Part shown: in pieces, positions 7,548 through 22,419 of the stretch
How the letters are laid out: each line of letters opens with the position of its first letter
How positions within the stretch are numbered: position 1 is the stretch's first letter
DNA from: Pseudomonas nicosulfuronedens
GTDB taxonomy: Bacteria; Pseudomonadota; Gammaproteobacteria; Pseudomonadales; Pseudomonadaceae
NCBI RefSeq assembly: GCF_005877905.1
Contig: NZ_SWDV01000004.1
Location: 248,001 to 312,000, forward strand
Length of the DNA stretch: 64,000 nt
Direction: 5' to 3'
Translations under genes and position numbers: made by a program
Notes under the pieces: generated by a model
Database searches by the model: none
What the model saw: the letters and a program-made list of their open reading frames with translations, nothing else
What the model was told of the DNA's origin: nothing

Positions 7548-7631
7548 GTAGGATGGGTGGAGCGTAGCGATACCCATGCTACTGCGGGTGCGCAGATATC
7601 GATGGGTATCGCTGCACTCCACGCCATCCTA
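7548..7631. repeat. Family A palindromic repeat, copy 1
   Basis: An inverted pair: the left arm GTAGGATGGGTGGAGCG continues to GCGATACCCATG, and the right arm is its near-complement ending CCATCCTA. Other copies: 8938-9016, 27061-27142, 46563-46645, 48602-48681. Confidence 0.85.
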
Positions 7632-7673
7632 ATTGGGAGCTTTCGCCAGCACGATCAGCTGGCAGGATGATGA

Positions 7674-8843
7674 TTATTCGCCGGCCTGCGCCAGCTCGAA
7701 GCTCATCATCAGGGCCCAGGGCGCATCGCTGTCGCCCACGCGGATGGGCTGCAACAGTTGCACACGGCGGCCTTTCACCTGTTCCCAACTTCGGCCCTGG
7801 GCGATGGCGTTGCGTGCTTCCTGTGGCAGTTCGCCGGCCTTGTCGCCCAGGCGTTTGGCGTCCGGGTGGGTGACGTAGACGCTGGCGTTGGACAGCAGCG
7901 TGTACTGGCCATTGCCCATGGGTGTCAGCTTGCCGAGGCTTTCCTGCAACTGGTGCAGGGTGTAGTCGGCGCCGAGGATACCGAGGAAGCGGCCGTTGGC
8001 AGTCATGGGCGACATGAACGAGGTCATCAGCACGGTGCTGCCGCCGACGCTGTACTCGTAGGGCTCCATGAACACGTCGCGGCCCTTGTCGCGGGGGATC
8101 TGGTACCAGTCGCCGCTGCCATCGGCCTTGTCGTAGCCGACCAGGCATTCGCGCTGGGCCACGCCGCTGCCGCGGTGCCAGTAGGCCATGAGACGACCGC
8201 TGGCGTCGTGACCCGGTGCGTTGACGAATTCGCTGTCACGGCCGTCGAAGGCGTTGGGCTCGCAGCCGCAGGCGAAGGCCAGCAGCTCGGGATTGCGGGT
8301 CAGGTACTCGTGCATCACCGCGTCGATCTGCTCGCGCTGCGGGCCGAGGTTGCGTGTCTTCAGGCCGAGCAGGAAGTGCTTCAGGCCGTAAAGCGCGGTG
8401 GCCATCACGGCGAAGCGTGCCTCCAGGCGCTGGGTCTCGCTGGCCAGCACCACGCGGGCGGTGTCCAGCAGGCTGGAGTGCTCGGCCTGTTCGACATCGG
8501 CCAGGGCCTTGGCGCTTTCGCTCTTGATCGAGGCGACGACGTTGCCGATATCGGCGGTGGCGTTGGCCGACTGGGTGGCCAGGCGGCGCACCTCATCGGC
8601 GACCACCGCGAAGCCGCGTCCGCTTTCCCCGGCGCGGGCAGCCTCGATGGCGGCATTGAGGGCCACCAGGTTGGTGTTCTTGGCGATCTGCTTGATGACT
8701 TCGGAGACTTTGCTGATCTCGGTCCAGCGCACATTGAGGCCGGCGATAAGCTGCTTGACCTGGTCGATGGTGGAACGGGTGCTGGAGCTGTCTTCGGCCT
8801 TGGCGGGCCGTGGTTCGAGTGTAATTGACATGGTTTGGGACAC
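7674..8843 (-). CDS. Soluble methyl-accepting chemotaxis-type receptor, inverted domain order
   Basis: A 389-residue protein. The receptor signalling tip is at the N-terminus: residues 45-90 contain [20 protein letters not shown] and [13 protein letters not shown], the CheA/CheW contact hairpin. Only about six heptads flank each side, so classical methylation helices and HAMP are absent. After a helical linker (about 110-165), residues 170-385 resemble a Cache/PDC sensor ([20 protein letters not shown], then [18 protein letters not shown]). No signal peptide or membrane segment is seen, so the sensor is predicted to be cytoplasmic. It is on the same strand as the polyamine locus but about 280 bp beyond it, with two repeats between. 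The ligand is unknown. Confidence 0.8.
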
Positions 8844-8937
8844 TGCAGTGGCGGAGGAGGGCAGGGGTAGACGAGGGCTGGGATTTTTCTTATGTCAGCC
8901 GCTTTCCAAAGCTGGGGCTGTGGTCGCAGGCGGGTCG

Positions 8938-9016
8938 TAGGATGGTGTGGAGCGAAGCGATACCCACCGTGCTTCGCGTAAACCGCATGGGTATCGCTGC
9001 GCTCCACCCATCCTAC
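8938..9016. repeat. Family A palindromic repeat, copy 2
   Basis: GTAGGATGGTGTGGAGCG at the left end and CGCTCCACCCATCCTAC at the right end. It sits immediately beside a family B repeat, 20 bp away. Confidence 0.85.
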
Positions 9017-9036
9017 AAAGGCCTCCCGGAAGGCCC

Positions 9037-9113
9037 GTAGGGCGAATAACGCGTAGCGTTATCCGCCGCCATGGCTGGACGGCGGATAACCCGTTCCGGG
9101 TTATGCGCCCTAC
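9037..9113. repeat. Family B palindromic repeat, copy 1
   Basis: The left arm begins GTAGGGCGAATAACGCG and the right arm ends GGTTATGCGCCCTAC, with an inner pair GTTATCCGCCG / CGGCGGATAAC. It lies just downstream of the SnoaL-like gene stop. Other copies: 19426-19514 and 24270-24343. Confidence 0.82.
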
Positions 9114-9120
9114 GTTTCCG

Positions 9121-9597
9121 TTACCAACCGAGCTGCTTGTGAAGGCCCAGGGCGTCGTAGTAGTCGCCCTGGTAGACGATCTTGCCGTCCTTGACCTTCA
9201 CGTAGCTCACACCGTCGAACGACAGCGGCTTGTTGGTCGCCGGGGTCTGGGCGTCCCAGGCGCCGGTGTTGGTGCCGCTGAAGGTCCACTGGAAGGCGAT
9301 GCCGTCCTTGTCGACGATCGGCTTGCCGTTCATCTTCCACTTCAGGTCCGGCACGGCCCCCACGAACACCTTGATCACGTTGTCGCGCGCGGCGTCGCGG
9401 CCTTTCTGCGGGGTGCCGACGGTGACGTCGAAGTACTCCGCATCCTTGGCCAGGTAGCCGGCGGCCTTCTCGGCGTCGTGGGCATTCCACGCGGCCATGT
9501 AGGCATCGACGATCTGTTTGGGCGACTCTGCGGCCTGTACCAGGCCGGCAAAGGTGAACAGCGACAGCAGGTAGAACGCTCTGACGAGGTGACGCAT
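9121..9597 (-). CDS. Secreted SnoaL-like / NTF2-fold protein
   Basis: A 158-residue precursor. The N-terminus MRHLVRAFYLLSLFTFAGLVQA is a Sec signal peptide with cleavage expected after VQA, and GGAGG lies upstream of the ATG. The mature part matches the SnoaL-like ester cyclase/NTF2 fold: VDAYMAAWNAHDAEKAAGYL, VGTPQKGRDAARDNVIKVF, FQWTFSGTNTGAW and KDGKIVYQGDYYD. Such domains bind small hydrophobic or carbonyl compounds and are sometimes catalytic. It follows spdH by 86 bp on the same strand, so it is likely the last gene of that transcript. A periplasmic role beside SpdH is inferred from context only. Confidence 0.75.
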   Translation of the reverse strand: MRHLVRAFYLLSLFTFAGLVQAAESPKQIVDAYMAAWNAHDAEKAAGYLAKDAEYFDVTVGTPQKGRDAARDNVIKVFVGAVPDLKWKMNGKPIVDKDGIAFQWTFSGTNTGAWDAQTPATNKPLSFDGVSYVKVKDGKIVYQGDYYDALGLHKQLGW

Positions 9598-9683
9598 GCT
9601 TGCCTCCGTTGCGGGCGTGCCCGCGGGTTGTCGGCCGGATGGCCGTTGAGTGTGGCGCCACGCGTGACGTGGCGCCGGGACCA

Positions 9684-11546
9684 TCAGGACAGTTCGCCCA
9701 CCGCGCGCCAGGCTTCGTCGATGGCCGCGTGGGCGTAGGCGTCCCAGGCGGCGTCGGAGTTGGCGATGGTGACGTTGCCGACCCTGGTACGAGCCAGGTT
9801 CATCAGTTTTTCGCTCTCTTCCTCATCATCGAAGAGGCTGTTGGAGAAGTACGAATAGCCGTGCGACCAACGGTTGATGGTGATCGCCTGGATGTCCTTC
9901 TGGTGGTCGAAGCCGGCCGGGCCGAGCATGGCCTGCAGCTGGTCGCGGATCTGCGTTTCCATCTGCTCGAAACTCATGGCGTAGAGCTTGCCGCGGCCGA
10001 CGCGGGCCTGGGTGCGCGCGTCCATGCCGGCGTTCGGGCTGGTGGGCACGTAGACCATGTGCAGGCCGATGGGCTGGTTCGGGTCGCGCGGGTGGCTGTA
10101 GCCGCCGATGTCCACCGGGTAGTCCAGCTTCACGCGGCTGTACGGCTGGCTCGGCGCGTAGATCTCGTGCACGCCCAGCTTCATGAAGCTCTGCCAGTTG
10201 CGGATCACCACCTTGGTGTACACCAGCGGGAACTTCACGTTCTGCGCCAGGGCGTGGCTCTGCTCGGCGGAGAGGTCGCGCAGGAGGTACGGGATGATCA
10301 TGTTGTAGCAGGCCAGCACGCAGTGCTTGCCACGCACGCGGTGCAGGGCGCCGGCACGGCTGTAGCCGACGTCTACGCCGCCGTCGCGGTTCTTCACGCT
10401 CACCGCGGTGCTGTTCAGACGCAGGCGCACGGCGTTCTTCGGCTGGTCCAGTTTCGAATAGTCGAAGGTGGCCAGGACGATGTCGTTCATGTCCTTGCCC
10501 GGCGCCACGCCTGGAATCAGGCCGCGCACCAGCAGGCGCGCCAGCGAGGCGTTGCCGTCGGGGAAGTGGTAGATGTACGGCTCTTCCATCTCCGCCTTGA
10601 GCTCTTCGCTGATGGGCGAGAGGTCCATCGCGGCGAAGCCGGGGAAGCCCACGCCATAGGCGTCAGCGGCAGCCACGGCGTCGATGCTCAGCGCCGAGAA
10701 GTCGTTGGTGCGGCTGAGGAAGTAGCGGGTGGCGGCTTCGCTCAGGCCGACGTCCTTGCGCAGGAAGTCCTGGTAGCTGGTCTTGGCCAGGTGCGCTTCC
10801 TTCTCCTCGCGGGTCTTGCCGGCGAGGTAATCCCTGGGGGCTTCGTGCAGGTCGATCAGCGCCTGGCGGTCGGCCTCGGGCAGCGGGAAGTCGCCGATGA
10901 AGGCACGCCAGCTACGGGCGTTGAGTTTTTCCGGGGCGATGTCGTCGGCCACCATCGGCGTCGGGTCGCCGCTGACCATCTTCGCTTCGCCGAAGCCGGC
11001 CTTGTCGAAGAACACCCCGCGTGACAGGCCCAGGCCCGGATAGAAGTCGCGGTCGAAGGCGGTCTGGAAGCGATCGACGTCGACGTTCAACTGCTTGAGC
11101 AGGCCGTTCACCGTGTCGCTGTACAGGTGCTTGGGCGACTGGAAGGCTTCGCTGCCGCCGTAGCCGAGGATCATCCGGCCACCGGCCTGGAATTCGTTGC
11201 GCTTGGCGTGGCCGCCGAAGTCGTCATGGTTCTCGATGATCAGTACGCGCGCCTTGGGGTGCTTCTGCCGGTAGAACCAGGCCGCAGACAAGCCGCTGAT
11301 GCCGCCGCCGACCACCACCAGGTCGTACTGCTCCTCGATCTTCAGGCCATCGGTATCGAATACCTTCTTCTCCCAGCCCATCTGGTGCGCGACCTCGAAC
11401 GCGCCGGGATGGCTGCCGCGCATGCCGGTCAGGGCGGGCGGGTAGTAGCGGCCGGAGGGGGCGGCCTGGAGAAGTTGCAGCGGGGTGAGGCCCGCGCCGA
11501 TGGTGAGGGCAACGCCGTTGAGGAAGTCGCGGCGGGTGATGGTCAT
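9684..11546 (-). CDS. spdH: Tat-exported FAD-dependent spermidine dehydrogenase
   Basis: A 620-residue flavoprotein, the length I recall for P. aeruginosa SpdH (PA3713). Residues 4-8 are the twin-arginine motif (TRRDF), followed by a hydrophobic stretch to LLQAAP, indicating folded export. The FAD-binding dinucleotide fold is YDLVVVGGGISGLSAAWFY, with ENHDDFGGHAKRN as the ribose-binding continuation. SpdH oxidises spermidine to 1,3-diaminopropane and 4-aminobutanal, the substrate of the PatD-like dehydrogenases in this locus. The ATG at 11546, preceded by AAGGA, is chosen over a TTG five codons upstream. It is separated from the upstream patD-like gene by a region holding a strong hairpin. 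Confidence 0.82.
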   Translation of the reverse strand: MTITRRDFLNGVALTIGAGLTPLQLLQAAPSGRYYPPALTGMRGSHPGAFEVAHQMGWEKKVFDTDGLKIEEQYDLVVVGGGISGLSAAWFYRQKHPKARVLIIENHDDFGGHAKRNEFQAGGRMILGYGGSEAFQSPKHLYSDTVNGLLKQLNVDVDRFQTAFDRDFYPGLGLSRGVFFDKAGFGEAKMVSGDPTPMVADDIAPEKLNARSWRAFIGDFPLPEADRQALIDLHEAPRDYLAGKTREEKEAHLAKTSYQDFLRKDVGLSEAATRYFLSRTNDFSALSIDAVAAADAYGVGFPGFAAMDLSPISEELKAEMEEPYIYHFPDGNASLARLLVRGLIPGVAPGKDMNDIVLATFDYSKLDQPKNAVRLRLNSTAVSVKNRDGGVDVGYSRAGALHRVRGKHCVLACYNMIIPYLLRDLSAEQSHALAQNVKFPLVYTKVVIRNWQSFMKLGVHEIYAPSQPYSRVKLDYPVDIGGYSHPRDPNQPIGLHMVYVPTSPNAGMDARTQARVGRGKLYAMSFEQMETQIRDQLQAMLGPAGFDHQKDIQAITINRWSHGYSYFSNSLFDDEEESEKLMNLARTRVGNVTIANSDAAWDAYAHAAIDEAWRAVGELS

Positions 11547-11732
11547 GGGAAATCCTTGCAAGGTGATGGCCCGGGGCAGGGGCTGTCATGGTTTTGCCCT
11601 TCCATGCCGGAAGGGGTTGCGGCATGCGTGGCCGCGCGGCGGCCCCGGTCGAGCGGGGCGCCGATTTGAAGCTTTTGATCTTTACGGTGTAACGAGGAAC
11701 CAACGACCGCGCGAGCTAGAGCAGGACGAGGC

Positions 11733-11784
11733 GGAAAGAGGGGCGGGCCCAGGAGGGTAAATAACTGGGCCCGCCCCTCTTTCC
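11733..11784. other. Perfect 20-bp stem-loop between patD-like gene and spdH
   Basis: GGAAAGAGGGGCGGGCCCAG at 11733-11752 is exactly complementary to 11765-11784 around a 12-base AT-rich loop. Neither strand has a U-tract next to the stem. It lies 33 bp after the stop of the patD-like gene and 187 bp before the spdH start. It could be a factor-independent terminator, an attenuator or an mRNA-stabilising stem. Confidence 0.75.
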
Positions 11785-11816
11785 AACGCTGTACTGCCGA
11801 CGCGCAGCCGGTTGTT

Positions 11817-13241
11817 TTAGTGTTTGATCATCACGTGGCGAATGGCGGTGTAATCCTCCAGGCCGTACATGGACATATCCTTGCCGTAGCCCGACAGCTT
11901 CATGCCGCCGTGGGGCATCTCGGTGGTCAGCATGAAGTGCGTGTTGACCCAGGTGCAGCCGTACTGCAGGCGCGCGGACAGGCGATGGGCACGGCCGATG
12001 TCGCTGGTCCACACCGAGGAGGCCAGGCCATAGTCGGAGTCGTTCGCCCAGGCCAGCGCCTGTGCTTCGTCTTCGAACTCGGTGACCGAAACCACCGGGC
12101 CGAAGATTTCGCGGCGGACCACTTCGTCGTCCTGGCGGGCGCCGGCCAGTACGGTCGGCTCGAAGAAGAAGCCCGCGCGGTCGGCACGCTTGCCGCCGGT
12201 AACGACTTCGATGTGCGGCACCTGGCGGGCGCGCTCGACGAAGCCGATCACGCGCTCCAGGTGCTGTTCGGTGATGACCGGGCCCAGCTCGGTGTTCGGG
12301 TCGTCCTGCTCGCCGTACTGGATGCTGGCCACGGCGGCGCCGAGCTTCTCGACGAACTTGGCGTAGATGCCCTTCTGCGCGTAGATGCGGCAGGCGGCGG
12401 TGCAGTCTTGGCCTGCGTTGTAGAAGCCGAAGGTGCGGATGCCTTCCACGGCGGCGTCGATGTCGGCGTCGTCGAAGATCAGTACCGGGGCCTTGCCGCC
12501 CAGTTCCATGTGCATGCGCTTCACGGTGTCGGCGGTGCCGGCGATGATGCGGCTGCCGGTGGCGACCGAACCGGTCAGGGACACCATGCGCACTTTCGGA
12601 TGGGTGGTCAGCGGCTCGCCAACGGTCGGGCCACGGCCGAAGACCAGGTTGACCACGCCAGCGGGGAAGATGCCGGCCATCAGCTGCGCCAGGCGCAGGG
12701 CGGTCAGCGGGGTCTGCTCGGACGGCTTGAGCACCACGGTGTTGCCGGCGGCCAGGGCCGGGCCGAGTTTCCACGCGACCATCATCAGCGGGTAGTTCCA
12801 CGGCGCGATGGAGGCGACCACGCCCACCGGGTCGCGGCGGATCATCGAGGTGTGGCCCGGCAGGTATTCGCCAGCGGCGGAGCCTTGCATCACGCGGCAG
12901 GCGCCGGCGAAGAAGCGGAACACGTCGGCCACGGCCGGCAGTTCGTCGTTCAGCGCGGCGGAGTAGGGCTTGCCGCAGTTGTTGGACTCCAGGCGGGCCA
13001 GTTCCTCGGCGTTGGCGTCGATGGCGTCGGCCAGTTGCAGCAGGAGCATCGCGCGGTCTTTCGGCGCGGTCTGCGACCAGCTGTCGAAGGCCGCATCGGC
13101 GGCCAGCACGGCGGCGTCGACCTGGGCCGGGGTGGCCTCGGCGATCTCCACCAGGGTGGTGCCCAGGGACGGGTTCAGGACGGCGAGCTTCTCGCCTTCG
13201 CCAGCGACCAGTTGGCCGTTGATCAGCAGGTTGGTTTGCAT
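11817..13241 (-). CDS. patD: Gamma-aminobutyraldehyde dehydrogenase, PatD/YdcW-like (copy 1)
   Basis: A 474-residue aldehyde dehydrogenase, the same length as recalled for E. coli PatD (YdcW) and very similar along its length ([20 protein letters not shown]; ends [12 protein letters not shown]). Catalytic features: MELGGKAP with the general-base Glu, GQDCTAACR with the nucleophilic Cys, and [20 protein letters not shown] at the cofactor site. It oxidises 4-aminobutanal to GABA with NAD+. The start at 13241 has AGAGGA upstream; an 11-codon extension is rejected. It is the last gene after the importer genes, with a family D repeat between, and precedes spdH, which produces its presumed substrate. 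Confidence 0.85.
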
Positions 13242-13375
13242 GGTTGGGTCCTCTTGTTCAGAAGCGTGGTGCAAATTCGGTTGGGGTGTTTCTTCTTGGG
13301 GGCCTGCCGGTTCTGGGAGCCGGCGGGCCTGAGGGGTTCTGTGAGTTCGGAGTGGGGGCTTTTCCCTTTCCCCCG

Positions 13376-13509: not shown

Positions 13510-14316
13510 TTATTTCCCGCTCCCCGCCACGCCTTCACCACCCTTGGTCAGGTAGTAGGCGCCGAGGATCGGCAGCATGGTCACGATCATCACCAGCATC
13601 GCCACCACGTTGGTCACCGGCACGTCGCGCGGGCGGCCCAACTGGTTGAGCAGCCAGATCGGCAGGGTGCGTTCATGGCCGGCGGTGAAGGTGGTGACGA
13701 TGATCTCGTCGAAGGACAGCGCGAACGCCAGCATGCCGCCGGCCAGCAGCGCCGAGCCGAGGTTGGGCAGGATCACGTAGCGGAAGGTCTGCCAGCCGTC
13801 GGCGCCCAGGTCCATCGAGGCTTCGATGAGGCTGTGGGAGGTGCGGCGGAAGCGTGCGATGACGTTGTTGTAGACGATCACCACGCAGAAGGTGGCGTGG
13901 CCGATGACGATGGTCAGGAAGCCCGGCTCGATGCCGAGGGTCTTGAACGCCGACAGCAGCGCGATACCGGTGATGATGCCGGGCAGGGCGATCGGCAGGA
14001 TCAGCATCAGCGAGATGCCCTCCTTGCCGAAGAAGTCGCGGCGATACAGCGCGGCGGCCGCGAGCGTGCCCAGAAGCATGGCGATCAGCGTGGCGACGCT
14101 GGCGATCTTCACCGACAGCTCGATGGCTTCGAGCACGTCCTGGCGCGCAAAGGCGACGCTGAACCAGTGCAGGGTGAAGCCCTTGGGCGGGAAGCTGAAG
14201 GCCGCGTCCTCGGTGTTGAAGGCGTACAGGAAGATGATCAGGATCGGGAAGTGCAGGAACACCAGCCCGCCCCAGGCGGCCGCTTTCAGGCCCCACGAAG
14301 CTTTCTCAGAGTGCAT
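13510..14316 (-). CDS. ydcV: Polyamine ABC transporter permease, YdcV/PotC-like
   Basis: A 268-residue inner membrane protein with six predicted helices, starting near [20 protein letters not shown]. The EAA loop ([20 protein letters not shown]) that docks on the ATPase is clear. The length and the N-terminal segment match the PotC/YdcV branch of spermidine/putrescine permeases. The gene overlaps the upstream permease by 11 bp, so the two are co-translated and probably form the heterodimeric channel. Confidence 0.83.
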
Positions 14317-15256
14317 CGAAGGCCCCCAGACGTTTGACGATGGACAGGTACACGGCGATCAGCACGATGGGCACCAGGGTGAAGGCGGCGGCCATCGGCA
14401 TGTTGCCGATCGCGCCCTGCTGGGCGTAGACCATGCTGCCGATGAAGTAGCCCGGCGGGCCCACCAGTTGCGGCACGATGAAGTCGCCCAGGGTCAGGCT
14501 GAAGGTAAAGATCGAGCCGGCGGCGATGCCGGGGATCGACAGCGGCAGGATGACCTGGAAGAAGGTCTGCCGCGGGTGCGCGCCGAGGTCCGCCGAGGCC
14601 TGCAGCAGTGACGGCGGCAGGCGCTCCAGGGAGGCCTGGATCGGCAGGATCATGAACGGCAGCCAGATGTACACGAACACCAGGAAGCGCCCGAAGCTGG
14701 AGGTGGACAGGGTGTTGCCACCGATACCCGGAATGCCCAGCAGCAGGTTCAGTATGGGCTCCAGGCCCAGGTGCTGGACGAACCACATGGCCACGCCGCC
14801 CTTGGCCAGCAGCAGGGTCCAGGCGTAGGCCTTGACGATGTAGCTGGCCCACATCGGCATCATCACGGCGATGTAGAAGAACGCCTTGGTCTTGCCGGTG
14901 GTGTAGCGCGCCATGTAGTAGGCGATGGGGAATGCCACCGCTCCGCTGGCAATGGAGACCGCGACCGCCATCAGCACGGTGCGCTGGATGATGTCGAAGT
15001 TGGAGCCACTGAACAGCGAGCCGAAGTTGGCCCAGGTCAGGTCCGGCGTCACCGTCATGGTGAAGTCGTCGAAGGTGTAGAAACCCTGCCACAGCAGTGT
15101 CAGCAGGGAGCCCAGGTAGATCGCGCCGAACCACAGCAGCGGCGGAATCAGCAGCAGCGAGAGGTACAGCGTCGGCTTGCGGTAGAGCAGGTTGGACAGG
15201 CGCCGCAGCGGGCCATTGCTGGCCGCGGGCAGCGCTGCATTCATCGTCAGTTCCAT
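14306..15256 (-). CDS. ydcU: Polyamine ABC transporter permease, YdcU/PotB-like
   Basis: A 316-residue permease with an N-terminal helix [20 protein letters not shown], a periplasmic loop, and five further helices. The EAA motif reads [20 protein letters not shown]. The start lies one base after the stop of the ATPase gene with a GAGGGGG sequence upstream; a second ATG four codons in is possible. It pairs with the YdcV-like permease in a PotB/PotC-type heterodimer. Confidence 0.83.
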
Positions 15257-15257
15257 G

Positions 15258-16286
15258 TCACGCCCCCTCGTTCAGCACCACCATCGCCTCGCGTGCCCAG
15301 CGAGCGGTCACGCGCTGGCCCGGCTGATGGGCGAGGTCGATGTCGGCCCATTGGCTGTTGGCCTGGCTGAGGCAGAGGTTCTGGCCGTTGTCGAGACGGA
15401 TCTCGTAGCGGGTCGCCGCGCCCTGGTACTGGATGTCGTGGAGCAGGCCGCTGATTTCGATGTCCGAGGCGCTGCGCTCGCCGTTGGCGAAGCGGATGTG
15501 CTCGGGGCGGATGGAGAAGGGCTGGACGTTGCCGGTCAGGCTCTGGGCGATGTCGCCGCGCAGCACGTTGGAGGTGCCGACGAACTCGGCCACGAACGGG
15601 GTGGCCGGCTTCATGTAGAGGTTGCGCGGGGTGTCGACCTGCTCGATGCGGCCCTTGTTGAATACCGCGACGCGGTCGGACATGGACAGCGCTTCGCTCT
15701 GGTCGTGGGTGACGAAGATGAAGGTGATGCCCAGCTGGCGCTGCAGCTTCTTCAGCTCGCTCTGCATCTGCTCGCGCAGCTTGAGGTCGAGGGCGCCGAG
15801 GGGTTCGTCCAGCAACAGCACGCGCGGACGATTCACCAGAGCGCGGGCCAGGGCGACGCGCTGGCGCTGACCACCGGAGAGCTGCACCGGCTTGCGCACG
15901 CCGTAGCCACCCAGGGCAACCATGGCCAGGGCTTCTTCGGCGCGCTTGAGGCGTTCGGCCTTGCCGATGCCTTTCACCTTCAGGCCGTAGGCGACGTTCT
16001 CCAGCACGCTCATGTGCGGGAACAGCGCGTAGTCCTGGAACACCGTGTTGACGTCGCGCTGGTACGGCGGAAGGCCTGCGGCCTCCTCACCATGGATGCG
16101 GATGGAGCCTGCGCTGGGTTGCTCGAAGCCGGCGATCAGGCGCAGGCAGGTGGTCTTGCCCGAACCCGACGGGCCGAGCATGGAGAAGAACTCGCCGTCC
16201 TTGATGTCGATGGACACCCGGTCAACGGCTTTCACCTCGCCGAACTGGCGGGAGACCTGGGTGAATTGAACAGCGGGGGTGGTCAT
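15258..16286 (-). CDS. ydcT: Polyamine ABC transporter ATPase, YdcT/PotA-like
   Basis: A 342-residue ATPase. Walker A is GPSGSGKTT, Q-loop VFQDYALFPHM, signature LSGGQRQR, Walker B VLLLDEPLGALD, and the H-loop FVTHDQSEAL. A C-terminal TOBE-type domain follows (VQPFSIRPEHIRFANGE). The start MTTPAVQF has TTGGAG upstream; a 40-codon extension into the intergenic region is rejected because it crosses the repeat zone without a ribosome site. The length is close to recalled YdcT and PotA proteins. Confidence 0.85.
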   Translation of the reverse strand: MTTPAVQFTQVSRQFGEVKAVDRVSIDIKDGEFFSMLGPSGSGKTTCLRLIAGFEQPSAGSIRIHGEEAAGLPPYQRDVNTVFQDYALFPHMSVLENVAYGLKVKGIGKAERLKRAEEALAMVALGGYGVRKPVQLSGGQRQRVALARALVNRPRVLLLDEPLGALDLKLREQMQSELKKLQRQLGITFIFVTHDQSEALSMSDRVAVFNKGRIEQVDTPRNLYMKPATPFVAEFVGTSNVLRGDIAQSLTGNVQPFSIRPEHIRFANGERSASDIEISGLLHDIQYQGAATRYEIRLDNGQNLCLSQANSQWADIDLAHQPGQRVTARWAREAMVVLNEGA

Positions 16287-16413
16287 GGTGCACGCTCCAA
16301 GGGGCAGGAATCCGGCGCGGCCGGGCCCTGCCCGTAAATCTGAGATACGGGTGAATCGATGCAATCGGATGGATGCCGTGAGGCTCGCCGGGATGGCGAG
16401 GTGCACGGGGCGG

Positions 16414-16489: not shown

Positions 16490-17635
16490 TTAACGGCCGC
16501 CCATGATCCCGATGTAGTCCTGGGTCCAGCGGCTGTACGGGACGAACTTGCCGCCTTCAGCCTGCGGGGTCTTCCAGAACGCGATCTTGTCGAACTGGTC
16601 GTAGCCGTTGGTGGCGCAGCCCTCGGCACCCAGCAGGGTGCTGGCCTTGCAGCCTTCGGGCACGGCCGGTACGGAACCGAACCAGGCCGCCACGTCGCCC
16701 TGGACCTTGGGCTCCAGCGACCAGTTCAGCCACTTGTAGGCGCAGCTCGGGTGCTGGGCTTCGGCGTGCAGCATGGTGGTGTCGGCCCAGCCGGTGACGC
16801 CTTCTTTCGGGAACACGGTGGCGATGGGCTGACCTTCGGCCTTCAGGGCGTTGGCCTGGTACGGCCAGGCGCTGGAAGCGGCGACGCCTTCGTTCTTGAA
16901 GTCGCTCATCTGCACGGTGGTGTCGTGCCAGTAGCGGTGGATCAGGTCATGCTGCTTGCGCAGCAGGTCGACCACGGCGGCGTACTGCTTCTCGTCGAGC
17001 TGGTACGGGTCGGTGATGCCCAACTCGGGCTGGATGGCCTTCAGGTACAGCGCGGCATCGGCGACGTAGATCGGGCCGTCGTAGGCCTGTACGCGGCCCT
17101 TGTTCGGCTTGCCGTCAGGCAGGTTCTGCGCTTCGAACACGACTTTCCAGCTGTCCGGCGCGGTGGGGAAGACCTTGGTGTTGTACATCAGCAGGTTCGG
17201 GCCCCACTGGTACGGCGCGCCGTAGGTCTTGCCGTTGACCACGTACCAGGCGGCGTCCTTCAGGCGTGGGTCGATGTTCTTCCAGTTGGGGATCAGCGAC
17301 GGGTCGATCGGCTGCACGCGCTTGCCGTAGATCAGGCGCAGGGAGGCGTCGCCCGAGGCGGTGACCAGGTCGTAGCCGCCCTTGGCCATCAGGCTGACCA
17401 TCTCGTCGGAGGTGGCGGCGGTCTTCACGTTGACCTGGCAGCCGGTGTCCTTCTCGAACTGGGTCACCCAGTCGTAGTTCTTGTCGGACTGGCCGCGCTC
17501 GATGTAGCCGGGCCAGGCGATGATGTCCAGGCGGCCTTCGCCTTGGCCGACTTCCTTCAGGGCCTCGGCGGCCTGGACGCCGGCGCTGGCCAGCAGGGCG
17601 GTGGTGATGGCACTGAGCAGTGCGGTCTTGCGCAT
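16490..17635 (-). CDS. ydcS: Periplasmic polyamine-binding protein, YdcS/PotD-like
   Basis: A 381-residue precursor with a Sec signal peptide MRKTALLSAITTALLASAGVQA. The mature part shows the PotD-type fold: GRLDIIAWPGYIERGQ at the start, YDLVTASGDASLRLIYGKRV, then YQWGPNLLMYNTKVF in the hinge region. GAGGGAG precedes the ATG. It leads the transporter genes and is followed by a REP pair, the usual arrangement for an abundant binding protein. The ligand (putrescine, spermidine or a related compound) is inferred from the PatD-like and SpdH neighbours. Confidence 0.82.
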   Translation of the reverse strand: MRKTALLSAITTALLASAGVQAAEALKEVGQGEGRLDIIAWPGYIERGQSDKNYDWVTQFEKDTGCQVNVKTAATSDEMVSLMAKGGYDLVTASGDASLRLIYGKRVQPIDPSLIPNWKNIDPRLKDAAWYVVNGKTYGAPYQWGPNLLMYNTKVFPTAPDSWKVVFEAQNLPDGKPNKGRVQAYDGPIYVADAALYLKAIQPELGITDPYQLDEKQYAAVVDLLRKQHDLIHRYWHDTTVQMSDFKNEGVAASSAWPYQANALKAEGQPIATVFPKEGVTGWADTTMLHAEAQHPSCAYKWLNWSLEPKVQGDVAAWFGSVPAVPEGCKASTLLGAEGCATNGYDQFDKIAFWKTPQAEGGKFVPYSRWTQDYIGIMGGR

Positions 17636-17754: not shown

Positions 17755-19251
17755 TCAATCCAGTTGCTGGCCGTGGCGCGCCATGATGTGGCGCACCACG
17801 CTGTAGTCCTGCAGCGAGTCGCTGGACAGGTCCTTGCCGTAGCCCGAGCGCTTGAGCCCGCCGTGGGGCATCTCGCTGGCGAGCATGAAATGGGTGTTGA
17901 TCCAGGTGCAGCCGTACTGCAGGCGGTTGGCGATCTGGAAGGCCTTGTCCAGGTTCTGCGTCCACACCGAGGAGGCCAGGCCGTATTCGGAGTCGTTGGC
18001 CCAGTCCACCGCCTGCTCCAGCTGGTCGAAGCGGGTCACGGTGACCACCGGGCCGAACACTTCGCGCTGGACGATCTCGTCCTGCTGCTTGCAGCCGGCC
18101 AGCAGGGTCGGCTGGTAGTAGAAGCCGGGGCCCGAATGCACGGCGGCGCCGGTGACGCGTTCGATGTGCGGCTGGCCGAGGGCGCGTTCGACGAAGCTGG
18201 CCACGCGGTCGCGCTGGCGGGCGCTGATCAGCGGGCTGATCTCGTTGTCGGCGTCGCGCTTGCGGGCGAAACGGATGCTGGCCACGGCGTCGCCCAGCTC
18301 GGCGACGAGGCGGTCATGGATGCCGGCCTGGGCGTAGATGCGGCAGGCGGCGGTGCAGTCCTGCCCGGCGTTGTAGTAACCGTGGGTACGCACGCCCTGG
18401 ACCACGGCTTCGAGGTCGGCGTCGTTGCAGACGATCACCGGTGCCTTGCCGCCCAGTTCCAGGTGGGTGCGTTTGAGCGTGCGCGAGGCGGCCTGGAGAA
18501 TCTTCTGCCCGGTGACGATGTCGCCGGTGAGCGAGACCATGCGCACCTTCGGGTGGCTGACCAGATGACTGCCGACGCCTTCGCCGCCGCCGCAGACGAT
18601 ATTGATCACGCCCGGTGGGAGAATCTCGACCAGCGCCGGCGCCAGCGCCAGGATGCTCAGCGGGGTGTGTTCGGACGGCTTGAACACCAGCGTGTTGCCG
18701 GCGGCGAGTGCGGGGGCGATCTTCCACGCGGCCATCATCAGCGGGTAGTTCCACGGTGCGATGGAGGCAACCACGCCCACCGGATCGCGGCGGACCATGC
18801 TGGTGTGGCCGGGCACGTATTCGCCAGCGAGCTGGCCCTGCTGGCAGCGCACGGCGCCGGCGAAGAAGCGGAACACGTCGGCGGTGGCCGGAATATCGTC
18901 CTGGCGCGCGAGATGCAACGGCTTGCCGCAGTTCAGCGATTCCAACTGGGCGAGATCATTCGCGCGCTTGTCGATGGCGTCGGCGATAGCCAGCAGCGCG
19001 GCGGAACGTTGTGCGGGGGTCGTGCGGGCCCAGGCGGGGAAGGCGCGGTGCGCGCTGGCGATGGCCTGCTCGACCTGGTCGATGGAGCCGTCGGCGATGC
19101 TGACGATGTTCTCGCCCGTGGTCGGGTTGATGATCGGTTCGGCCATGCCTTCGCCGGCGACCAATTGGCCGTCGATCAGCAAGGCGGTATGCAGGGTTGC
19201 GCCGGTCATCTTGGAAACTCGTCTTTTATCTGTCTTGTTTTCGGGGGCCAT
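17755..19251 (-). CDS. PatD-like aldehyde dehydrogenase (copy 2)
   Basis: A 498-residue aldehyde dehydrogenase paralogous to the one at 11817: both carry [26 protein letters not shown] and [13 protein letters not shown] blocks. Catalytic Glu is in LELGGKAP and catalytic Cys in GQDCTAACR. Differences at the cofactor and substrate loops ([14 protein letters not shown] versus [14 protein letters not shown]) suggest a different aldehyde, for example 3-aminopropanal or the putrescine-derived aldehyde. The ATG at 19251 has GGAG seven bases upstream; a start 14 codons later (19209) matches the paralog better at the N-terminus but has a weaker site. It is first in the block and lies below the LysR gene. 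Confidence 0.82.
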
Positions 19252-19357
19252 GTGCGTGCTCCGGCGTAGGGGCGGTGCCCGGAACTTGGCTCTTTGGTAT
19301 GGGGCGAGAGACTAGAGTCCGGGCGTGGGGTCGACAAATTCTAATTACTGAAAGCGC

Positions 19358-19376
19358 CGTTCGATTAAATCGAACG
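19358..19376. promoter_or_regulatory. Candidate LysR operator upstream of the polyamine block
   Basis: CGTTCGATTAAATCGAACG is a perfect dyad with 8-base arms and contains a T-N11-A core, the usual LysR-type half-site geometry. It is centred about 115 bp upstream of the dehydrogenase start at 19251. A 15-of-19 match in the reverse orientation lies upstream of the LysR gene at 20551-20569. Confidence 0.65.
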
Positions 19377-19425
19377 CTGTAAGCCTCTAGTTCAAAAGGC
19401 GTTTTGCCATTGCGTAGCGGCTTTC

Positions 19426-19514
19426 GTAGGGCGCATAACGCTGCAAGCGTTATCCGTCGTTCATTTCTTCCCGGTCCATTCGGCGGATAACCGCTAGCGG
19501 TTATCCGCCCTGCG
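19426..19514. repeat. Family B palindromic repeat, copy 2
   Basis: Begins GTAGGGCGCATAACGCTG and ends GCGGTTATCCGCCCTGCG. It lies just after the stop of the LysR gene at 19545, so it may serve as its 3' boundary. Confidence 0.82.
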
Positions 19515-19544
19515 TTGGTCCGGCACGTACGGGTAAATCGGTTT

Positions 19545-20456
19545 TCAGATCGACAGGCGTTTTGCGTTGGGCTGCTCGCGGGCGACGGTAAGGAACGGGT
19601 CCACCAGTGCCGGCCGCGCGGTACCGCGCCGCCACGCCAGGCCCACGTCGAGCGGCTCGGACAGGTCCACCAGCGGCCGTGCTTCGATGATGTCGCCTTC
19701 CAGCGACCAGGGGCGATAGGTCATGTCCGGCTGGATCGACAGCCCCAGGCCCGCCGCCACCAGGCTTCGTACCGCTTCCACCGAGGCGGTGCGCAGCGTC
19801 ACCTGCGGCACCAGCCCGGCACGCGACCAGATGCGCTGGGTGTGCAGGCCCATCTCGTCGGCGTTCAGCTGGATCAACGGCTCGCCCGCTACATCGGCCA
19901 GGCCGATGCTGTCGCGTTCCAGCAGCGGGTGCTGCGCCGGTAGCCAGAGGCGGTGCGGCGAGTGGGTCAGTACCTCGGTCTGCAGGGCGTGGCGGTCCTC
20001 CAGGTTGGAGAGGATCAGCACGCCGACATCGATCTCGCCGCTCACCAGCAGGTGTTCGATGTACGGGCGTTCGTCCTCCACCACGCGGGTCTTCACGTTG
20101 GGGAAGGCGCGTTGGAAGCGATTGATCAGGTCCGCCAGGTAATAGCCCGCCACCAGGCTGGTCACCCCGATGGTGAGGCTGCCCGCCACCTGGTCGGTGC
20201 TCTGCTGCAGGCTGCGCTTGGCGTTCTCCACCGTGGCCAGGATCAGGTGCGCCTGGCGCAGGAACTGGTGGCCCTGGTGGGTCAGGGTCATGCCCTTGGC
20301 GTGGCGGTCGAACAGGCGCACGCCGATCTCTTCTTCCAGTTGCTGGATGGCCAGGGTCAGGGTGGACTGGGAAATGAACACCGCCTGGGCAGCGGCGGAG
20401 ATCGAGCCGGTCTCGGCGACGGCGATGAAGTGGCGGATCTGGCGGAGCGTCATCAT
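19545..20456 (-). CDS. LysR-family transcriptional regulator of the polyamine block (inferred)
   Basis: A 303-residue regulator. The winged helix-turn-helix is at residues 1-60 (TLRQIRHFIAVAETGSISAA, then SQSTLTLAIQQLEEEIGVRL), followed by an effector-binding domain (GSLTIGVTSLVAGYYLADLI). The ATG at 20456 is chosen over a GTG seven codons upstream; neither has a strong ribosome site, and the next codon is also ATG. It is transcribed in the same direction as, and upstream of, the dehydrogenase and transporter genes. Related dyads precede both it and the operon, which supports control of both by this protein. Confidence 0.8.
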   Translation of the reverse strand: MMTLRQIRHFIAVAETGSISAAAQAVFISQSTLTLAIQQLEEEIGVRLFDRHAKGMTLTHQGHQFLRQAHLILATVENAKRSLQQSTDQVAGSLTIGVTSLVAGYYLADLINRFQRAFPNVKTRVVEDERPYIEHLLVSGEIDVGVLILSNLEDRHALQTEVLTHSPHRLWLPAQHPLLERDSIGLADVAGEPLIQLNADEMGLHTQRIWSRAGLVPQVTLRTASVEAVRSLVAAGLGLSIQPDMTYRPWSLEGDIIEARPLVDLSEPLDVGLAWRRGTARPALVDPFLTVAREQPNAKRLSI

Positions 20457-20550
20457 GCTGATTGGCCGCTGGCGCACGGAGCCGCGATCTAGAGCCTTGT
20501 CTAGCCGGTCTCGGCGCTTTTCATTGTTGATTATCGAAAATCTATAGGAG

Positions 20551-20569
20551 CATTCTTTTTAATCGAATG
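20551..20569. promoter_or_regulatory. Candidate LysR autoregulatory operator
   Basis: On the minus strand this reads CATTCGATTAAAAAGAATG, identical at 15 of 19 positions to the dyad at 19358-19376, with 5-base perfect outer arms and the same T-N11-A spacing. It ends 95 bp upstream of the LysR start, close to the 107-bp distance of the other site from its gene. Confidence 0.6.
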
Positions 20570-20706
20570 AAAGCGGCCTATTTGCCCTGCGGACCCGCTG
20601 GCAAAGGCCCGCAATATCCGGAAGCACTCTGTGCCTGCGCTGTGACAAGGCTGCGAGCTAGAGTCGGAGGCCTGACTTTTCATCTCGATAGCTAGCGGAG
20701 ATCGCC

Positions 20707-21426
20707 ATGAACACACGTGGCCTGCTCGACCAACTGCTCAAGTCCGGGCAGGAACTGATGCAGAACAAGGGCCTCACCCAGCAGGGCGGCGGCCAGAGCT
20801 CGCAAGGCAGCAACAAAGGCGGCCTGGACCTGGGCAGCCTGCTGTCCGGCGCCGGAGGCGGTGCGTTGGCAGCTGGCGCGCTGGGTCTGCTGATGGGCAG
20901 CAAGAAGGCGCGCAAGGTGGGCGGCAAGGTCGTCGCCTATGGCGGTCTCGCGGCGCTCGGCGTGCTCGCCTACAAGGCCTACGGCAACTGGCAGCAGAAG
21001 CAGGCCAGCGCCCCGCGCGGTGAGCCGCAGACCGTCGACCGGCTGCCGCCTGCCCAGGCCGAGCAGCACAGCCATGCCATCCTTCGGGCCATCGTCGCTG
21101 CCGCGAAGGCCGACGGTCATATCGACGATCGCGAACGCCAGCTGATCGACGGCGAGATCGCCAAGCTCACCGGCGACGTCGAGCTGCAGGGCTGGCTCGA
21201 CCGCGAACTGGCCAAGCCGCTGGACCCGGCCGAAGTCGCCCGCGCGGCCACCAGCGAGGAAATGGCCGCCGAGATGTACCTGGCCAGTCTGCTGATGGTC
21301 GACGAGACCAATTTCATGGAGCGCGCCTACCTCGACGAACTGGCCCGCCAGCTGAGCCTTGACGCTGGCCTCAAGGTCGAACTGGAGGCCCAGGCGCAGA
21401 AGGCGCTGGAGGCTGTTCCGGCCTAG
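20707..21426 (+). CDS. DUF533 / TerB-like protein (tandem copy 1)
   Basis: A 239-residue protein with a DUF533 architecture: N-terminal amphipathic segment MNTRGLLDQLLKSGQELMQ, a Gly-rich hydrophobic stretch (GGGALAAGALGLLMG) and a second hydrophobic stretch (GGLAALGVLAYKAYGNW), then a helical TerB-like domain from about residue 110. The acidic loop AAKADGHIDDRERQLIDGE is the TerB metal-binding-type signature. CGGAGAT precedes the ATG. Function is unknown; relatives such as YebE are membrane-associated. A paralog follows 195 bp downstream. Confidence 0.75.
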   Translation: MNTRGLLDQLLKSGQELMQNKGLTQQGGGQSSQGSNKGGLDLGSLLSGAGGGALAAGALGLLMGSKKARKVGGKVVAYGGLAALGVLAYKAYGNWQQKQASAPRGEPQTVDRLPPAQAEQHSHAILRAIVAAAKADGHIDDRERQLIDGEIAKLTGDVELQGWLDRELAKPLDPAEVARAATSEEMAAEMYLASLLMVDETNFMERAYLDELARQLSLDAGLKVELEAQAQKALEAVPA

Positions 21427-21621
21427 TCCGTGACGACCCTCGCAAGCGTCGGATAAACCTCGCGACTGCGTTGCTTTGTCTGGCTCCGGACGGGGCTGCG
21501 CTTCAGGCTCCATCGCCGGGCGTCCCGACCATTCCGGGCCGGCTGGCGGACGGCGCTGGCGCATCGGTGTGGCGGGACTATCGTTGCCCAACGCACACCG
21601 CGCGATGGCGAGGGACTGGTC

Positions 21622-22419
21622 ATGAACACAACCGATCTACTGGAACAACTGCTGCGGGCCGGACAGGGCTCGGCGGCGCAACAGCAACAGGGTGGCGCCG
21701 GCGGCGCAGACCCGCTGGGTGGCCTGGGTGGCTTGCTCGGCGGGCTTCTGGGCGGTGGCGGAGCCGGCGGTGGCGGCGGCCTGGGTGGGCTGGGCTCGAT
21801 CCTCGGCGGCGGCAGTTCCGGTGGCGGTGGGCTCGGCGGCCTGGGTGGCGTGCTCGGCAGCATGCTCGGTGGTGGCAGCAGCGGTGGTGGCATGCCGCAG
21901 GGGCGTTCCAGTGGCGGCGGTGTCAACTACGCCATGCTCGCCTCGCTGGGGATGATGGCTTATCAGGCCTATCAGAGTTGGCAACGCAATCAAGGCGCCA
22001 ATCCCTCGCAGCAGCAATCCCTGACCACCGTCGACCAGCTCGATGGCCCCGAGGCCGAGGCGCACAGCCACGCCATCCTCCAGGCGATGCTGGCGGCAGC
22101 CAAGGCGGACGGTCGAATCGATCAGCGTGAGCAGGCCGCCATTCAGGCCGAATTGCAGCGCCATGCCGGCGAGCCACAACTGCAAGCGTGGATCGACGCC
22201 GAGATGCGCAAGCCGCTGGACGCCGCCGATGTCGCCCGCGCGGCCCAGGGTGACCCTGCGGTGGCCGCGGAGATGTACCTGGTCAGCGTGATGCTGGTGG
22301 ATGACCAGCAGGACGCCGAGCGTACCTACCTCGACGAACTGGCCTACAACCTCAACCTCGACCCGCAACTGCAGGCGCACCTGGAGCAACAGGCCAAGAC
22401 GGGCGGCGAAGTAGCTTGA
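21622..22419 (+). CDS. DUF533 / TerB-like protein (tandem copy 2, Gly-rich)
   Basis: A 265-residue paralog of the preceding protein. It shares the start (MNTTDLLEQLLRAGQ), the acidic TerB loop (AAAKADGRIDQREQAAI) and the tail (AEMYLVSVMLVDDQQDAERT). Its linker, residues about 15-100, is expanded with Gly, Ser and Leu in GGLGGLGG-type repeats. AGGGA lies before the ATG. The two genes are in tandem and probably arose by duplication; the linker difference is the main divergence. Function unknown. Confidence 0.75.
   Translation: MNTTDLLEQLLRAGQGSAAQQQQGGAGGADPLGGLGGLLGGLLGGGGAGGGGGLGGLGSILGGGSSGGGGLGGLGGVLGSMLGGGSSGGGMPQGRSSGGGVNYAMLASLGMMAYQAYQSWQRNQGANPSQQQSLTTVDQLDGPEAEAHSHAILQAMLAAAKADGRIDQREQAAIQAELQRHAGEPQLQAWIDAEMRKPLDAADVARAAQGDPAVAAEMYLVSVMLVDDQQDAERTYLDELAYNLNLDPQLQAHLEQQAKTGGEVA

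Follow-up and report, generated by a model that had tools for sequence, protein, structure and literature searches.

Predicted LysR-type operators on both sides of a regulator gene next to a probable polyamine operon in Pseudomonas

The window, meaning the whole 64,000-nucleotide stretch of Pseudomonas nicosulfuronedens DNA that was analyzed, contains a tandem minus-strand array in the order lysR, ALDH1, YdcS-type protein, PotA-like ATPase, two permeases, ALDH2, and a relative of the spermidine dehydrogenase SpdH, with a DUF533 gene at 20707 divergent from lysR. The genes of the array are:

19545 to 20456, minus strand: LysR-type regulator gene (HTH_1 and LysR_substrate; Pfam PF00126, 79.8 bits, and PF03466, 140.3 bits)
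17755 to 19251, minus strand: ALDH1, aminobutyraldehyde-dehydrogenase-like, first gene after the operator (NF010000, 782.7 bits, cut-off 615)
16490 to 17635, minus strand: YdcS-type solute-binding protein (NF041888, 803.2 bits, cut-off 725)
15258 to 16406, minus strand: PotA-like ABC ATPase, whose true start may be at about 16289 (TIGR01187, 381.7 bits, cut-off 355.6)
14306 to 15256, minus strand: ABC permease, PotB/PotH-like (PF00528)
13510 to 14316, minus strand: ABC permease, PotC/PotI-like (PF00528)
11817 to 13274, minus strand: ALDH2, aminobutyraldehyde-dehydrogenase-like, likely start at about 13238 (NF010000, 820.3 bits, cut-off 615)
9684 to 11561, minus strand: SpdH relative, operon membership uncertain (1117.5 bits to PDB 7d9f)

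The regulator has the domains of a LysR-type protein of about 300 aa, with an N-terminal winged HTH (PF00126, residues 11–70) and a C-terminal substrate-binding domain (PF03466, residues 95–302). Its ATG is at 20456; a GTG further upstream, at 20477, is likewise open. Among the best 25 of 56 NCBIfam models it stays below the curated cut-offs of the LysR equivalogs (CidR, GltC, PtrR, and others), the top score being 156.7 for CidR against a cut-off of 415. In the PDB it matches best to 6m5f and 3fzv, two LysR proteins of P. aeruginosa, the first of which we take to be HinK. Orthology to HinK is not indicated, since the best solved relatives reach 135 bits over 296 residues, compared to more than 560 bits for the regulator's own orthologs. 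The YdcS-type protein and both aldehyde dehydrogenases are above their family cut-offs, so the name “polyamine locus” is reasonable by family, and the genes form a probable operon for the breakdown of polyamines (or amino-aldehydes). ALDH2 also matches TIGR03374 (859.2 bits, under the cut-off of 909.3), and the SpdH relative is close to P. aeruginosa SpdH. The E. coli cluster presumably has the gene order ydcSTUV-patD. As there, a YdcS-type binding protein (NF041888), ABC components, and an aminobutyraldehyde dehydrogenase are clustered, but here an extra aldehyde dehydrogenase (ALDH1) and a LysR-type regulator precede the cluster; the regulator adjoining the E. coli genes presumably belongs to another family.

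Gene order was compared in 10 related stretches of ~14 to 15.6 kb each. In all of them lysR and ALDH1 are adjacent, which makes ALDH1 the constant target; ALDH2 is likewise present in 10/10, the four transporter genes in nine, the first DUF533 copy upstream in eight, and the SpdH relative in just three. None of the locus genes were found in an eleventh stretch, L136, where the regulator is a 47% relative. One locus, L129 (G025:C34:178300-193000), keeps lysR and ALDH1, and the four transporter genes were not found between its ALDH1 and ALDH2. Another stretch, L124 (G000:C27:3000-22000), has at 7617–13333 a second cluster made up of relatives of the YdcS-type, ATPase, two permease, and ALDH2 genes (74–84% identity), with no match to the LysR studied here nor to ALDH1.

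The counts given below refer to 94 distinct loci. A scan of genome contigs found 363 regulator relatives, of which the best 80 of the 363 were kept. Among 56 host-related genomes searched, 31 had a match at 1e-60, and 26 loci from host-related genomes (L082 to L107) have both lysR and ALDH1. L081, a duplicate of the window's own locus, and L108–L111, 41–49% relatives with no ALDH1 match, were left out before counting, and 12 of the 106 rows were removed as identical in lysR and the 107 bp downstream. The remaining 94 are close orthologs (identity to the protein in the window is at least 87%, measured over the best-matching stretch), and as such share descent and are not independent. The operator and promoter spacing patterns used on the operon and lysR sides were written after viewing the alignment.

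Two matching sites flank lysR, each associated with a predicted promoter:

19358 to 19376, minus strand: operon-side operator (recognition site), with a 15-bp core TTCGATTTAATCGAA at 19360–19374, centered at -65 relative to the predicted start
19338 to 19359, minus strand: 22-bp stretch from the operator to the -35 box, a candidate activation site (22 bp in 94/94 loci; mean 1.55 bits/column)
19332 to 19337, minus strand: predicted -35 box of the operon promoter, TTGTCG (TTGT at a fixed distance in 94/94)
19309 to 19314, minus strand: predicted -10 box of the operon promoter, TAGTCT, with a predicted start at about 19302 (spacer of 17 bp in 93/94 loci, 18 in one)
20551 to 20569, minus strand: lysR-side operator, with a 15-bp core TTCGATTAAAAAGAA at 20553–20567
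20530 to 20535, minus strand: predicted -10 box of lysR, GATAAT, 17 bp past the operator, with a predicted start at about 20523

The operon-side site was first described in an earlier note on this DNA as a perfect 19-bp dyad, and it is one: on the plus strand, 19358–19376 reads CGTTCGATTAAATCGAACG, a 9+1+9 palindrome containing T-N11-A. The same note's partner for it, on the minus strand upstream of lysR (CATTCGATTAAAAAGAATG), does equal the dyad at 15 of 19 positions and does contain T-N11-A. The distances of 107 and 95 bp it gave from these sites to the start codons are each one too many, the gaps to the ATGs being 106 and 94. Allowing up to three mismatches, the 19-mer occurs at a single place in the window, counting both strands (shuffle mean 0.02, with two matches in 1 of 100 shuffles).

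Conservation on the operon side is strong. Compared with TTCGATTNAATCGAA, the core has no mismatches in 50 of the 94 loci, one in a single locus, two in 42, and three in one; 35 of the 42 two-mismatch cores share one form, ATCTATTTAATCGAA, with ATCTATT as the left half. L037 alone has ATCTATTTAATAGAA, with both inner halves of the palindrome changed. From the end of the core to the TTGT of the -35 box is 22 bp in every locus, and within these 22 bp is an imperfect palindrome, TTCAGTAATTAGAA, at 19339–19352, centered near -44. The -10 box was searched as TA[GAC][TGC]CT. With the start taken as 7 bp past it, the dyad center falls at -65 in 93 loci and at -66 in one, the position expected for a LysR-type regulator. 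A LysR recognition site has the form T-N11-A and is often found around -65, and an activation site extends over the -35 and -10 regions (PMC8407307). On average the dyad carries 1.82 bits/column and the 22 bp after it 1.55; the -35 and -10 boxes reach 1.70 and 1.80, the spacer between them 1.04, and the 19 bp beyond the -10 box 0.46. Intergenic conservation is thus not limited to the two dyads, as had been claimed: it also takes in the 22-bp stretch, both promoter boxes, and in some loci an element on the DUF533 side. A generic sigma-70 scan, which demands a stricter fit to TTGACA/TATAAT, found no promoter in 19200–20750.

On the lysR side, the last six bases of the operator (20553–20558) fall where the predicted lysR promoter would have its -35 box, an overlap which suggests that lysR is repressed by its own product. 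The strict form of this arrangement, [TA]TC-N9-GA[AT] and then, exactly 17 bp further on, [GT]A[TC]AA, is found in 64 of the 94 loci and in 1 of 4700 shuffles. At 18 other spacings (8–16 and 18–26 bp), it is seen at 9 bp only, in five loci. The 30 loci that miss the strict pattern include, by eye, near forms of it. A matrix was trained on operon-side operators alone, of which the 94 loci have 8 distinct types. In the window it gives its highest score, 24.8 bits, to the dyad and its second highest, 18.4, to the lysR-side site, the third being 10.2. Dinucleotide shuffles of the lysR upstream region reach the lysR-side score in 1 of 2000 cases. The matrix finds the site at no more than 5 of 100 shuffles in 90 of the 94 loci and at no more than 1 of 100 in 79; the test failed in L033, L055, L078, and L079. 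DUF533 was considered as an alternative target and rejected. This gene was found in 58 of 80 named loci, in some of which the upstream flank is cut, and the site stays where DUF533 is missing, so it was assigned to lysR. Covariation between the left halves of the two operators was looked for by eye and dropped; some operon-side TTC halves pair with ATC halves on the lysR side.

It could be argued that only the operon-side dyad is functional and that the lysR-side likeness is a by-product of an AT-rich promoter, given that the second site is imperfect, with four differences, and that so many loci miss the strict pattern. This is unlikely. A matrix that had never been given the lysR-side site still picks it out ahead of everything but the dyad, shuffled sequence rarely scores as well, the great majority of loci pass at the 5-in-100 level, and the spacing of 17 bp to the -10-like box is exact. 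Two operators, both functional, remain the preferred reading.

The whole host genome (6.68 Mb) was searched by pattern scans, as the earlier note had recommended. With up to three mismatches the 19-mer occurs once. At up to two mismatches TTCGATTWAATCGAA occurs at four places, namely the two sites and two weaker matches in reading frames; the latter, on contigs C24 and C42, have two mismatches each, lie inside frames of 251 and 497 aa, and were set aside as chance. At up to one mismatch TTCKATWWAAWMGAA finds the two sites only, and a reversed control gave 2 matches, equal to the forward pattern on that strand. No third intergenic operator was found by these scans, and from the pattern matches the regulon appears to be this locus alone. 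Across related Pseudomonas the expected conservation is borne out, in all 94 loci on the operon side and in 64 (strict) or 90 (matrix) on the lysR side; dyads that failed to be conserved in species carrying the locus, which the note had held would tell against it, were not what was found.

In 148 family genomes, a 29-base pattern made up of the operator and the next stretch (up to three mismatches) occurs once each in 42 and not at all in the other 106, while its control had no matches in the 148. By eye, these 42 are also the genomes whose regulator is at least 87% identical, and the pattern lies within ~190 bp of the lysR end in them. ALDH1 is present in the same 42. A further 26 genomes have only 39–49% regulator relatives, and none of these has the pattern. 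This co-occurrence shows one conserved unit, but not which protein binds, and so leaves some room for a different regulator at the dyads, for example a nitrogen or polyamine regulator of many genes. Such a regulator is very unlikely to be the one: it should have more sites than two intergenic places in 6.68 Mb, and T-N11-A, the -65 position, and paired sites at a target and at the regulator's own promoter are all LysR-type traits.

In 74 of the 94 loci the operon-side operator straddles the stop codon of lysR, and the window is among the other 20; an “intergenic dyad” is accordingly a minority feature, the window's included. The register of the overlap is fixed: TTCGATT-TAA-TCGAA, or a variant of it, encodes Ser-Ile-stop in all 74. 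The last isoleucine codon is ATT in every one of these and the stop is TAA in all but one, which has TAG. Elsewhere in the same lysR genes ATT makes up 230 of 1377 isoleucine codons. Among 67 overlap loci of equal length, with 17 isoleucine columns, ATT is fixed only in the final column, and this column is one of just four among 196 invariant degenerate columns to have no synonymous change. The 20 non-overlap loci keep Ser-Ile, with ATC in 17 and ATT in three, and stop with TGA (12) or TAG (8) and never TAA. On the lysR tree these 20 loci need four changes, of which well supported branches require at least three, and three loci with the overlap are interspersed with them. The pattern is thus not evidence of a single move, and with only four changes on the tree there are few independent events behind the codon contrast.

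How the operator may have become separated from the stop codon in the window is suggested by its relatives and by one further feature:

19387 to 19544 (approximate), no strand: insertion of ~158 bp compared with sister locus L084 (gap of 293 vs. 135 bp)

In L008 the operator overlaps the stop. In L097 a short tandem copy puts a TAG in front of an intact dyad, and L084 has a few extra bases. A further ~158 bp is present in the window and in L086, where REP-like palindromes occur along with a repeat of the lysR tail. Because this repeated tail flanks the insertion, the exact ends of the insertion are uncertain. In the window the two REP-like palindromes are at 19432–19456 and 19482–19509; the longer is found at 11 places in the host genome at up to two mismatches. 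Read as a series, L008, L097, L084, and the window with L086 suggest steps by which an operator left a stop codon, and the distance of 22 bp to the promoter stayed unchanged through duplication and insertion, which argues for a DNA operator and not an RNA element tied to the stop. An alternative, judged extremely unlikely, is that the operon-side dyad acts in RNA, as a hairpin closing the lysR message (a ribosome termination structure or transcript-end stabilizer). In its favor, the dyad sits at the stop codon in 74 of the 94 loci and can fold (-12.4 kcal/mol, z -2.10, 11 of 200 shuffles equally good), and conserved structures just 3′ of stop codons are described in PMC7518266. Against it, the dyad has no T-run, a terminator scan found no terminator-like site between lysR and ALDH1, the matching lysR-side site does not fold (z -0.20), and a dyad shifted up to ~190 bp from the stop retains its 22 bp to the -35 box in 94/94 loci, so that its fixed partner is the downstream promoter.

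Taken as DNA operators, the two dyads very probably serve a LysR-type regulator that activates the operon and represses itself through both of them. The sequence features fit this: the center at -65 on the operon side is consistent with activation, and the lysR-side site over its own -35 with autorepression. Both dyads would be targets of the regulator whose gene lies between them. In front of ALDH1, a regulator tetramer would bind two places, with high affinity the dyad at -65 and more weakly a half-palindrome near -44, and in the presence of inducer would activate ALDH1-ydcSTUV-ALDH2. At its own promoter the regulator would sit on the dyad covering the -35 box and limit its own synthesis. 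Transcription starts were placed from the predicted boxes. A candidate inducer, guessed by analogy to HinK, is a product or intermediate of the aldehyde dehydrogenase step, such as GABA or an amino-aldehyde. In the 74 overlap relatives the last lysR codons and stop would serve protein and operator alike, and in the window's lineage the operator would have shifted off the stop, with the stop codon changing afterwards.

Most of the better-known LysR-type regulators are encoded divergently from their targets, with one shared region between the pair. Here regulator and target are instead in tandem and each has its own site, that of the operon lying over the regulator's stop in 74 of the 94 loci. 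In other respects the arrangement resembles the LysR-type architecture summarized in PMC8407307, with a T-N11-A dyad at about -65, a candidate second site beside the -35 box, and a putative site at the regulator's own promoter. The HinK system of P. aeruginosa is also similar. HinK adjoins an aldehyde dehydrogenase and a solute-binding protein, activates them, and regulates its own transcription region; its inducer is a pathway intermediate, imidazole-4-acetic acid, and it controls a second operon, hinFLHG, as well (PMC8231116). As with HinK-hinDAC, the regulator here is next to an aldehyde dehydrogenase and a solute-binding protein, but the neighboring genes differ and the PDB match is modest, as noted above. 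In the open-licence literature searched, the regulator is not named, and no case is described of a LysR-type operator that spans the stop codon of the regulator gene itself. The architecture itself is known and ordinary; what is new is an operator over the regulator's own stop, later freed in one lineage.

A more tentative proposal, and an unlikely one, is that selection on DNA binding keeps the stop as TAA and the final isoleucine codon as ATT, and that bound regulator acts as a roadblock to read-through from lysR into the operon, for which the lack of a terminator-like site between lysR and ALDH1 leaves room. If so, how far a single position is occupied would determine both read-through and activation of the operon and, via the upstream site, the level of the regulator. 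Apart from this, the locus provides a regulator, two predicted operators, and predicted promoters for an operon, concerned with polyamines or amino-aldehydes, that is found in many Pseudomonas. The layout is also a natural experiment, with codons fixed under the overlap and, once freed, a changed stop and an unchanged place of the operator relative to the promoter; comparing overlap and non-overlap loci separates selection on protein from selection on DNA within a few bases.

The DUF533-side element mentioned above, GTGCTTCCGGATATTG, is in the gap between lysR and DUF533 (minus strand, 20612–20627) and is found in 33 of the 94 loci. It is perhaps part of a DUF533 promoter region. In the window the DUF533 genes adjoining the regulator are a tandem pair (239 and 265 aa), at 20707–22419.
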